Part shown: in pieces, positions 22,287 to 61,548 of the stretch
How the letters are laid out: every line of letters starts with the position of its first letter
How positions within the stretch are numbered: the stretch's first letter is position 1
Assembly: GCF_003324485.1 (NCBI RefSeq)
Contig: NZ_QODK01000001.1
Coordinates: 868,001 to 932,000 of the forward strand
From: Cohaesibacter intestini
Lineage (GTDB): Bacteria > Pseudomonadota > Alphaproteobacteria > Rhizobiales > Cohaesibacteraceae
Length of the DNA: 64,000 nucleotides
Reading direction: 5' to 3'
The notes under the pieces: model-generated
Databases searched by the model: none
What the model was told of the DNA's origin: nothing
The model's input: the letters and a program-made list of their open reading frames with translations, nothing else
Position numbers and translations under genes: made by a program

Positions 22287-22498
22287 GAGTTCCTCCCAGA
22301 ACAGGTCCAAATTTGGGTTGCCATCCCGCTACGCAAAAACACGGCGATGGTCTGACGTTCGCGCCCATTATGCTCAGCGGAATGCACCCCGTCCACTGGC
22401 TCGATATTGCCCTTTGGTCGGTTGTTGGAGGGTTTTTTGTCAAAGATTGCGCTGAAAGCGCAGGGGTTTACGACTTTGGGCTAGTGTTGCCTGGAGGA

Positions 22499-31147: not shown

Positions 31148-31295
31148 AATTGGGCGTTTTTTGTGGCCTATGGGCTTCAAAGCGGTTGACCTTTGAGTCA
31201 TTTGCGCGTAGAAGCGCCCCATTCTCAATTGCCGATATGACAATTTGAGCCACTGACCCGGTCCCGCAATGGTATAAAGAGAACCGGGAAGTCCA

Positions 31296-31329
31296 CATCC
31301 GACAGCGCGATGCGCCCTCGGATGCTTTT
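31296..31329 (+). terminator. Hairpin with T-run upstream of ffh
   Basis: Seven-bp stem CATCCGA/TCGGATG (31296-31302 with 31318-31324) with a nested GCGC/GCGC, followed by five T. It lies 149 bp after the HAD gene and 105 bp before ffh. It could end the HAD transcript or attenuate an ffh leader; a TATAAA at 31273-31278 just upstream is -10-like. Confidence 0.55.
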
Positions 31330-31433
31330 TGCTATGGCCCGTTGTTTTTCTTCTTTGAAAGCACTTGGCGCGAGGCAGGAAAAGGCCCAAATTTGACCCA
31401 TCGGCAGGTTGAGAAAACTCGAAGGAGCAATGA

Positions 31434-49937: not shown

Positions 49938-50013
<76 letters not shown>

Positions 50014-59608: not shown

Positions 59609-60079
59609 ATGTTTGACAGCTTGATGCAATTGTTTCGCGAAATGTCCGGCGGAGACAGCGAAAAAGCCCTGTTTCAGGACGGGGATTGTCGCGTGGCAGT
59701 GGCCGCGCTGATGGTGCAGTTGATTTCAGTGGATGGCGTGATCGATGGGGCGGAACAGGCGCGCCTGAAAGATGTGCTGAAGAAGCGCTTCTCCCTCTCC
59801 GACAAGGAAACCTCCGAGTTGATCTCCATTGCCCATGAGCGGGAAAAGGAGGCGGTGGATCTCTACGGCTTTACCTCCGTGTTGAAGCGCGAATTGGACG
59901 AAGCAGGCCGGGTTGAAATCATTGAGATGATGTGGAAGCTGGTCTTTGCCGATGGCGAAATCCACGAGTTCGAAGACAATCTGGTCTGGCGCGTGGCGGA
60001 GCTGCTCGGTGTGTCGCGGCGGGATCGCATTCGCATGCGCCAGTCCGTTGAGTCCCATGCAGACAAGGCAAGCGAATGA
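59609..60079 (+). CDS. TerB/DjlA-like acidic helical protein
   Basis: A 156-residue all-helical protein with the TerB fold: two repeats containing ISVDGVIDGAEQARLKDVL (about 38-56) and VFADGEIHEFEDNLVWRVAELLGVS (about 112-136), each with an acidic D-G-E/D metal-type site. TerB relates to tellurite resistance and stress, but stand-alone alphaproteobacterial copies have no proven role. Its stop overlaps the next start (ATGA), so it is translationally coupled with the amidotransferase. Confidence 0.85.
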   Translation: MFDSLMQLFREMSGGDSEKALFQDGDCRVAVAALMVQLISVDGVIDGAEQARLKDVLKKRFSLSDKETSELISIAHEREKEAVDLYGFTSVLKRELDEAGRVEIIEMMWKLVFADGEIHEFEDNLVWRVAELLGVSRRDRIRMRQSVESHADKASE

Positions 60080-60795
60080 CCAACGGGGCGGGGGCGGAAC
60101 CAGCCCGAATCCTCATTGTGCTGCATCAGGAAACTTCGATTCCGGGGCGTGTCGGTACAATGCTGGAAAAGCGCGGCTTTCATCTTGATATCAGGCGGCC
60201 GCGCTTTGGAGATCCCTTGCCCTATACGATGGCAGAACATGCGGGCGCTGTCGTGTTTGGCGGGCCGATGAGCGCCAATGATCCGGATGCCTTCATCAAG
60301 CGCGAAATTGACTGGATGGCTGTGCCCTTGAAAGAGGACAAGCCGTTGCTGGGCATTTGCCTTGGAGGCCAGATGCTGGCCAAGCAGCTGGGCGCACGGG
60401 TCAAGGCCCATCCCAAGGATCAGGTTGAGATCGGCTATTATCCAATCAAGGCGACGGATGCGGGCGAGGCAATGATGCGTTGGCCGAGCCGGGTCTATCA
60501 GTGGCACCGGGAGGGCTTCGAGCTGCCCAAGGGGGCGGAGCTTCTGGCCGAGGGGCAGGTCTTTGCCAATCAGGCCTATCGCTACGGGGCCAATGCCTAT
60601 GGCTTGCAGTTCCATCCGGAAGTGACCATGCGGATGATGATGCGCTGGACCACCAAGGCATCGGATCGGCTGAAACTGCCCGGTGCGCGCAATCGTCGCA
60701 ACCATTATGCAGGGCGCCTGTTCCATGATCCGGCGGTGGAGCGCTGGTTGATTGCGTTCCTTGATCACTGGATTGGTCGCGCCGATCAAGCCTAG
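60076..60795 (+). CDS. Class I glutamine amidotransferase (GATase1-like)
   Basis: A 239-residue protein of the GMP-synthase-type amidotransferase fold. Nucleophile Cys95 lies in GICLGGQML, and the His-x-Glu of the triad is in LQFHPEVT (about 188). No synthetase domain is attached. Stand-alone members include gamma-glutamyl-hydrolase-type enzymes. Coupled by a 4-bp overlap to TerB. It is followed by the candidate sigma-54 sRNA locus. Substrate unknown. Confidence 0.88.
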   Translation: MTNGAGAEPARILIVLHQETSIPGRVGTMLEKRGFHLDIRRPRFGDPLPYTMAEHAGAVVFGGPMSANDPDAFIKREIDWMAVPLKEDKPLLGICLGGQMLAKQLGARVKAHPKDQVEIGYYPIKATDAGEAMMRWPSRVYQWHREGFELPKGAELLAEGQVFANQAYRYGANAYGLQFHPEVTMRMMMRWTTKASDRLKLPGARNRRNHYAGRLFHDPAVERWLIAFLDHWIGRADQA

Positions 60796-60825
60796 AGATT
60801 GTGGGGCTGGCTTCTCACGCAAGTC

Positions 60826-60838
60826 TTGCAATTTGCAA
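60826..60838. promoter_or_regulatory. Putative enhancer dyad 1 (TTGCA-N3-TGCAA)
   Basis: Perfect dyad, arms of 5 bp, centre 60832. It lies 31 bp after the amidotransferase stop and 21 bp (two helical turns) centre to centre from dyad 2, the spacing expected of tandem sites for a sigma-54 activator. Confidence 0.55.
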
Positions 60839-60846
60839 TAGTGGCC

Positions 60847-60859
60847 ATGCAATCTGCAT
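60847..60859. promoter_or_regulatory. Putative enhancer dyad 2 (ATGCA-N3-TGCAT)
   Basis: Perfect dyad with the same N3 spacer and TGCA core as dyad 1, centre 60853, about 115 bp upstream of the -24 element. Confidence 0.55.
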
Positions 60860-60965
60860 CGACAATCGTTATCGAAGGGTTGCCGGTGCGTTTGCCTGTT
60901 CAAGATATTGTGGCTTGCCCTCTTCGAACTCTACCATATATGGAAACGGCTCGCGCGCGCCTTGC

Positions 60966-60981
60966 TTGGCACGATGCTTGC
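60966..60981 (+). promoter_or_regulatory. Sigma-54 (RpoN) promoter, full consensus
   Basis: TTGGCACG (60966-60973), four bases, TTGC (60978-60981). The invariant GG and GC are exactly 10 bp apart. It matches TGGCACG-N4-TTGC without mismatch. The predicted start of transcription is near 60993. Confidence 0.75.
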
Positions 60982-60992
60982 GATGAAGAAGA

Positions 60993-61080
60993 CAAGCTGG
61001 CCTTGAGTTTTGCGTAGCCAGCTCTCAATTCGAAAGCCCCGATGCATGCGTGTTTTTTGTCTGCATCGGGGCTTTTGCTG
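60993..61080 (+). ncRNA. Candidate sigma-54-dependent small RNA
   Basis: A predicted 86-88-nt transcript that begins where the RpoN promoter would start it. Hairpin 1 (AGCTGGC/GCCAGCT, 60995-61001 with 61017-61023, 15-nt loop) opens at the 5' end. A 9-nt single-stranded linker (61024-61032) follows, and then a 14-bp terminator hairpin (61033-61046 with 61062-61075) with U-rich stretches in its loop and tail. A 72-codon TTG-start frame crosses the region but has no ribosome site. I do not recognise the RNA. Function unknown; a trans-acting Hfq-type RNA is plausible. Confidence 0.6.
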
Positions 61081-61081
61081 T
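61033..61081 (+). terminator. Terminator of the candidate small RNA
   Basis: Perfect 14-bp stem AAAGCCCCGATGCA/TGCATCGGGGCTTT with a 15-nt loop that contains six T, followed by TTTT and a later TTTTT. Confidence 0.85.
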
Positions 61082-61269
61082 TTTTGCATTCTTTTTACGC
61101 AATCTGCGGGATTGGGCTTGCAGGCTTGTCGGTGGATCGCTACATCACTGATGAGTTTGGCGCTGGAAAATCCAGCCTTTCCAGCCATTTTAGGGACCTG
61201 CAATTTGCACCAATCAGCAGCCGCGATTTGGCTATGGCCAATCGGTCCGGCGATCCTTTGAGGAACAAG

Positions 61270-61548
61270 ATGACCGCAATCATTCAGCTTATCGACATGA
61301 TCCTTTCCCTCTATACCTATATCGTGATTGCCTCAGCCGTCTTTTCCTGGCTGTTTGCCTTCAACATCGTCAATCCACGCAATCAGATTGTGGCCAGCAT
61401 TTATGAAGTCTGCTGGCGATTGACGGAGCCGCTTTTGTCGCGGATCCGCAATTTCTTGCCGTCAATGGGTGGGATGGATCTGTCGCCGATTGTTTTGTTG
61501 CTCGGTATCTTCTTTATCCGTAATTTGCTGCGCACGGGCATCTACTAA
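61270..61548 (+). CDS. YggT-family membrane protein
   Basis: A 92-residue integral membrane protein with two hydrophobic segments (about 5-28 and 68-88) separated by a loop (NIVNPRNQIVASIYEVCWRLTEPLLSRIRNFLP, about 31-64) that carries the family's RLTEPLL pattern. YggT relatives influence osmotic stress or membrane shape and division. The start at 61270 has GAGGAA six bp upstream. It lies behind the sRNA terminator and converges on ppa. Confidence 0.88.
   Translation: MTAIIQLIDMILSLYTYIVIASAVFSWLFAFNIVNPRNQIVASIYEVCWRLTEPLLSRIRNFLPSMGGMDLSPIVLLLGIFFIRNLLRTGIY

Follow-up and report, generated by a model that had tools for sequence, protein, structure and literature searches.

A conserved, predicted sigma-54-type small RNA gene with paired LuxO-like enhancer sites in Cohaesibacter and related Hyphomicrobiales

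The region between a GATase-domain gene and a YggT-family gene in the window, the whole 64,000-nucleotide stretch of Cohaesibacter intestini DNA analyzed here, is best accounted for by a conserved, structured sigma-54-type small RNA (sRNA) gene that has a pair of enhancer sites upstream. For positions 60826–61077, we consider it probable that such a gene is driven by a LuxO-family activator and that its RNA would pair in trans via a loop. The best reading of the system is a LuxO-family/sigma-54/sRNA module that works like the Qrr system of Vibrio, with an RNA that is not a Qrr. Comparison among genomes indicated that the boxes, the promoter, the stem, the loop, and the locus are conserved in eight families.

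The gap of ~470 bp between the two genes contains two TGCA dyads, an exact −24/−12 promoter, and two hairpins, and this element exists as an earlier note on the window had described it. The features, by position in the window, are as follows.

60076–60795, + strand: GATase (class I glutamine amidotransferase domain) gene, PF00117, the upstream neighbour
60826–60838, no strand assigned: enhancer dyad 1, TTGCAATTTGCAA (TTGCA-ATT-TGCAA), which fits TTGCAW3TGCAA, the LuxO site of Vibrio, at every position
60847–60859, no strand assigned: enhancer dyad 2, ATGCAATCTGCAT (ATGCA-ATC-TGCAT), two mismatches to the palindrome, middle ATC
60898–60910, + strand: block GTTCAAGATATTG, conserved in the alignment of 14 genomes and lying between the dyads and the promoter
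60967–60981, + strand: sigma-54 promoter TGGCACG-N4-TTGC (−24/−12), exact match
60993–61077, + strand: predicted small RNA of about 84–86 nt, start placed from the −12 element and end from the T run
60995–61023, + strand: hairpin 1, 7-bp stem (60995–61001/61017–61023) with a 15-nt loop ending UUGCGUA
61033–61076, + strand: hairpin 2, 14-bp terminator-like stem (61033–61046/61062–61075), then a short T run
61270–61548, + strand: YggT-family gene, the downstream neighbour in the genus, start placed at the onset of homology

The two TGCA-core dyads with N3 centres that the earlier note had reported were found at 60826–60838 and 60847–60859, with dyad 2 placed 21 bp after dyad 1 as claimed. Passages of two papers give the LuxO enhancer consensus as TTGCAW3TGCAA (PMC11443567; PMC10162802). 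The exact double dyad (TGCA-N3-TGC, N11, TGCA-N3-TGC) occurs a single time in the whole genome; lone strings resembling a box, with as many as two mismatches allowed, show no enrichment in the window (42 found vs 51 expected in shuffles). The exact 21-bp spacing was retained in all 14 aligned genomes of the genus, as well as in G010 and G017, and the dyads are positioned at −165 to −168 and −144 to −147 in 13 of the 14 and at −177/−156 in G012. At least one box (up to three mismatches) was detected in 27/27 sRNA-bearing genomes and at least two in 23/27, counts that are not independent evidence for the genomes picked by box and promoter. Elsewhere in the genome, visual inspection showed no sigma-54 promoter next to the other perfect LuxO boxes (L028 and L029), and the scan detected none adjoining a perfect box at C3:205044. 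The GTTCAAGATATTG block resembles an IHF site by eye and may function as one; an IHF scan allowing one mismatch was inconsistent, matching the block in some genomes only and not in that of C. intestini (G000).

The promoter matches TGGCACG-N4-TTGC without a mismatch, as previously claimed, and begins 108 bp past the end of dyad 2 rather than at the proposed distance of about 115 bp. It displays the −24/−12 elements, the conserved GG and GC, and the fixed spacing of a sigma-54-dependent gene. The exact string has one occurrence in the window, and strings with up to one mismatch are unremarkable there (4 found vs 2.4 expected). TGGCA[CT]G-N4-TTGC was present in all 18 genomes of the genus, and four of these 18 promoters sit at RNAs that were found by an RNA model containing no promoter. 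No sigma-70-type promoter was found in 60780–61300.

With the C of TTGC taken as −12, +1 falls at 60993, two bases 5′ of hairpin 1 (stem from 60995), in agreement with the start proposed earlier. The anticipated 9-nt linker separates hairpin 1 from hairpin 2, and the 14-bp stem was likewise recovered; the designation of this stem as a terminator did not hold in a terminator scan of 60780–61300, which called no canonical terminator, a result that probably reflects a short T run, some of it base-paired. T tracts are poor both at this locus and in the other families. The predicted RNA is short, as suggested, with a length of about 84–86 nt in place of the 86–88 nt given before. The 101 nt from 60985 to 61085 folded at −44.1 kcal/mol, vs a shuffle mean of −27.3 kcal/mol (z −5.1), and outperformed 200/200 dinucleotide shuffles. 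An RNA is presumably made from the locus.

A DNA search of 61 genomes, 18 of which belong to the genus, gave matches in 14, all within the genus; the match in G011 comprises the dyads only. The blocks conserved in these 14 genomes are both dyads, the promoter, hairpin 1 with its loop, and the second stem, and the promoter N4 and the spacers are variable. A covariance model (R1), built from the transcribed part alone of 14 sequences, without promoter or boxes, recovered the RNA in 18/18 genus genomes, including four new members (E 1.8e-6 to 2.2e-5). All four carry TGGCACG-N4-TTGC and at least one LuxO-type box, although they were selected for neither; G010 and G017 have the 21-bp box pair, and G008 and G005 have one clear box. 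Compensatory changes have occurred in their first stem, and a different sequence forms their second hairpin. The cassette (TTGCA-N3-TGCAA-type boxes, promoter, hairpin, and second stem) lies 3′ of the GATase gene in all 18 genomes.

Among 397 genomes of the order, a pattern of promoter plus hairpin matched 18/18 genus genomes and 3/379 others (G056, G461, and G597), and the reversed-pattern control gave one match in the same 397. The three matches outside the genus are all 3′ of a GATase gene, and all have a box. The GATase flanks were additionally searched in 17 genomes, 15 chosen for their LuxO-like matches and two (G461 and G597) for the sRNA, a sample biased for co-occurrence since all members were LuxO-like-positive or sRNA-positive by choice. 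A GATase match was obtained in 15/17 (none in G024 and G053). The box-plus-promoter scan of the flanks yielded 14 matches, of which five lacked the hairpin (scan noise) and nine had the same hairpin (G031, G032, G034, G039, G055, G056, G059, G461, and G597); six of the nine, excluding G056, G461, and G597, were unselected for the hairpin. The cassette was absent at the GATase gene in G060, G038, G019, G057, G043, and G018, and these six genomes, together with G024 and G053, have LuxO-like matches in 8/8 cases. In total, 27 genomes of 10 genera and 8 families bear the sRNA, namely the 18 of the genus and nine of seven other families.

With E values up to 0.1, R1 matched 37/121 genomes, 18 of them from the genus. 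The match in G461, outside the genus, is the real sRNA, and independent weak matches in G031, G032, and G034 coincide by coordinates with the flank-scan cassettes. The match at L121 was rejected as a stem beside a tRNA-like stretch (by eye). A search of 67 sources with RNA model R2 gave nothing above E 0.01 other than the members of the model, and the plasmid records searched gave no match. In divergent relatives, the sequence of the second hairpin is replaced and a long stem persists.

In the six-pair core of the first stem, 98.1% of the cells from the 27 hairpins were paired, and in 5/6 pairs both partners show changes (11 cells). In shuffles, which ignore the relatedness of the genomes, 0/500 were as high on pairing or both-side changes, and 1/500 equalled the count of pair types. 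When the partner columns were shifted by 1–3, pairing fell to 4.9–61.7%. The loop GCGU is invariant (27/27), UGCGUA occurs in 23/27, and the form GGU..UUGCGUA is found in most relatives. The retention of promoter and stems with covariation in 27 genomes bears out the earlier reading of a sigma-54 sRNA gene, for which conservation in relatives had been named as a check.

Action in trans is the most likely mode for the RNA, which may pair with mRNAs. Purely by analogy, base-pairing via the invariant loop would be favoured over protein binding. GlmY and CrcZ act as protein decoy or sponge, and we regard it as unlikely, though worth weighing, that the present RNA similarly binds a protein instead of pairing with mRNA. 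What stays invariant is the loop of a hairpin whose stem covaries, a pattern that a protein-binding site would be expected to show, and the limited sequence examined yielded no established target; however, no known binding motif was identified, and the unpaired invariant loop fits pairing equally well. Within the window and L050, which carries the luxO-like gene, anti-seed strings were located on the RNA's own antisense strand, at 61095, at 22328 (on the strand opposite an ORF that we take to be acetyl-CoA-synthetase-like), and once in L050. In the Vibrio feedback, the sRNA pairs with the luxO leader. Pairing of this type was rejected here, as the luxO-like leader held no anti-seed string for the sRNA loop in any of the 18 genus genomes (0/18).

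At gathering score, Rfam identified only tRNA and ffh RNA in the window: a tRNA at 49938–50010 and an ffh RNA at 31281–31332 (RF01793, E 2.5e-07). A search with 231 bases of the sRNA, up to E 10, gave weak unrelated matches and no Qrr (RF00378), and 12 sRNA relatives gave no sRNA match, Qrr included, at gathering score; a known RNA family was rejected on the basis of these searches. Searches of the open-licence literature on LuxO/Qrr in Alphaproteobacteria, Hyphomicrobiales, or Rhizobiales gave nothing appearing to describe such an sRNA, and the same was true for searches on Cohaesibacter small RNA and rhizobial sigma-54 sRNAs. In excerpts, PMC12559287 mentions Qrr by comparison only. The description "apparently undescribed" in the earlier note is thus upheld for Rfam 15 and for these open-licence literature searches.

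The gene resembles the qrr genes of Vibrionaceae (RF00378) in the TTGCA-N3-TGCAA box, often in two copies upstream, the sigma-54 promoter class, the putative LuxO-family activator, and a short RNA with a terminal stem. The combination of promoter and upstream boxes is that of Qrr, with one perfect box and a second with two mismatches. In contrast to Qrr, the RNA here consists of one hairpin plus the terminal stem, with another sequence and fold; it occurs in another class of bacteria, is not adjacent to the luxO-like gene, and has a candidate activator with a degenerate receiver. A qrr-like cassette beside luxO-like genes was rejected, as box, promoter, and hairpin occurred together in 0/50 such loci (L052–L101; two matches, neither with a hairpin), including the 20 class-sample loci examined (L082–L101), none of which had an adjoining sRNA cassette. 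In the control, the box-plus-promoter scan used for the GATase flanks detected a cassette with the box near −100 beside luxO in 7/8 loci with a LuxO over the NCBIfam cut-off (Vibrio-type), and Rfam called 7/7 of these Qrr (RF00378). GlmY/GlmZ and CrcZ are sigma-54-dependent sRNAs with the activators GlrR and CbrB, respectively. They are alike in being enhancer-activated sigma-54 sRNA genes, but their activators and sites differ and the RNA here has no Rfam match. The earlier note compared the design with Qrr, GlmY, and CrcZ; among these, the box match favours Qrr/LuxO.

The sequence points to a LuxO-family activator for the sRNA, where the earlier note had named none. The genome contains 11 full PF00158 activators and two partial matches, and the sole LuxO-like protein among the 11 is G000:C3:147017-148501 (L050:9018-10502, minus strand). 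Its best NCBIfam model is LuxO (465 bits, with NtrC next at 365), below the 800-bit cut-off of the LuxO equivalog (NF041946), and its top PDB sequence match is LuxO. Like LuxO (PDB 5ep0) and SypG, it has receiver-like, AAA+, and HTH parts, and in the structure alignment its AAA+ domain shares 57–59% identity with crystal structures of LuxO. The recognition helix SPSTIYRK is common to 18/18 LuxO-like proteins of the genus, 7/8 LuxO rows over the cut-off, and 7/12 order rows, with near variants in the rows of G031, G034, G056, and G055. In a quick tree of 80 rows without bootstrap, in which no finer grouping is supported, a 100% SH-aLRT branch split the LuxO-like set from the ten other activators. 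The genus rows and 11/12 order rows formed a 99% clade (the pseudo-receiver clade), and the eight LuxO rows over the cut-off formed a separate branch to which the LuxO-like protein does not belong. The G055 row (L081) fell outside the pseudo-receiver clade, and a second G055 match was left out of the tree. The protein groups with LuxO and shares its recognition helix, as members of the broad LuxO/SypG-like family do; it differs from LuxO itself by its score (465 vs 800 bits), its lost receiver residues, and its separate clade.

LuxO-like matches were found in 18/18 genus genomes and in all seven that were searched of the nine other sRNA-bearing genomes (G031, G032, G034, G039, G055, G056, and G059). 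In the class sample, LuxO-like proteins are present in 77/385 genomes and reach at most 676 bits with the LuxO model of Vibrio; a LuxO of at least 800 bits was found in 0/385 class-sample genomes and 8/398 phylum-sample genomes. A LuxO-type box lies 117 nt 5′ of the luxO-like start codon, which suggests autoregulation. It is at the aligned place in 13/18 genus genomes, and no box was found upstream of the gene in 12/12 order relatives. Outside the class, the luxO-like gene at L168 is preceded by LuxO-type boxes at −119 and −102. The neighbours of the luxO-like gene that were tested encode GNAT, thiolase, AMP-binding, patatin, and AraC-type proteins, and the nearest kinase-like ORF (by eye) in L050 is ~5 kb away.

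The receiver part of the LuxO-like protein lacks the acidic pocket, Asp, Thr, and Lys of a phosphorylated response regulator. In nine genus rows of the alignment, VVSSD replaces VED, so that the acidic pair is gone, LLD has no Asp at the acceptor position, and S and R stand in place of T and K; the Response_reg score is 20.5 bits vs a cut-off of 30.2. The AlphaFold model retains a receiver-like order of strands and helices (pLDDT about 80), with unsure domain packing (pTM 0.53), and the best matches in the PDB structure comparison included NtrC1, LuxO, NtrX, FleQ, and VpsR. FleQ and VpsR are activators with unusual receivers. They bind c-di-GMP according to the PDB entry titles. They resemble the LuxO-like protein as sigma-54-type activators among its structural matches, and the resemblance is through the shared fold only. 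The degenerate receiver makes ordinary phosphorylation unlikely as input.

The sRNA gene might instead be controlled by another enhancer-binding protein with a LuxO-box-like site, which we consider fairly improbable. The genome has ten other full activators, recognition of the boxes by the LuxO-like protein is itself a prediction, and passages of PMC10162802 describe a second activator of V. fischeri, SypG, that uses the same boxes. On the other hand, the LuxO recognition helix is limited to the LuxO-like protein in this genome (0/10 other activators), and the box beside the luxO-like gene in 13 of the 18 genus genomes argues for that protein.

The gene neighbourhood bears on whether the RNA could be a cis-acting leader or attenuator of yggT and not a trans-acting sRNA. 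The yggT gene is downstream on the same strand in 17/18 genus genomes (the sole exception, L118, lacks a yggT match), and the second hairpin could serve as an attenuator. However, the sRNA is kept in G056, G597, and G461 (loci L140, L141, and L142), where the locus examined yielded no homologue of yggT, a comparison covering three of the nine relatives outside the genus; three relatives that keep the RNA without yggT make a yggT leader very improbable. The shared neighbour is the GATase gene, a syntenic anchor located 5′ of the sRNA in 27/27 genomes; for the six genomes that came from the search anchored on the GATase gene, this adjacency follows from the search design. Three relatives of the GATase were found by name, all in Hyphomicrobiales MAGs, and L002 has the GATase gene and a YggT-like gene (the latter by eye) without the cassette. 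A third, isolated dyad, CTGCAATTTGCAC, with two mismatches vs the LuxO palindrome, is located at 61198–61210, 5′ of yggT.

One-mismatch promoter strings and two-mismatch lone boxes occur at chance frequency in the window, which could suggest that promoter-like string, dyads, and hairpin came together by accident. This reading is refuted by conservation with covariation across 27 genomes of eight families.

For the trans-acting sRNA under a LuxO-family activator, a mechanism analogous to that of Vibrio can be proposed. The LuxO-like protein G000:C3:147017-148501 would bind the two LuxO-type boxes, which are two helical turns apart. The bound activator would contact sigma-54 RNA polymerase at 60967–60981 by DNA looping, and this activation would drive an RNA of about 85 nt. 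The RNA would present its conserved loop on the covarying stem and end in a strong hairpin, most likely acting in trans by base-pairing through the loop.

LuxO–Qrr, the textbook example of a quorum-sensing circuit with RNA, is usually presented as a matter of Vibrio. We tentatively suggest, as a possibility we hold somewhat short of probable, that a LuxO-family activator, a LuxO box, and a sigma-54 sRNA form an old module beyond Vibrio. In Hyphomicrobiales, the RNA would be unrelated to Qrr, and the pseudo-receiver would sense another input (a small molecule, a second messenger, or a partner protein) that replaces the phosphorelay; the RNA would have been replaced and the upstream wiring kept or re-invented. 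For S. meliloti, part of one account gives seven predicted activators with targets known for three (PMC3616915). The gene described here would be a first predicted target, in one clade, for the LuxO-like proteins of the class (77/385 genomes). It would place a likely output gene in hand for an enhancer-binding protein with a dead receiver, and makes inheritance versus re-building of the LuxO–sRNA circuit directly testable.
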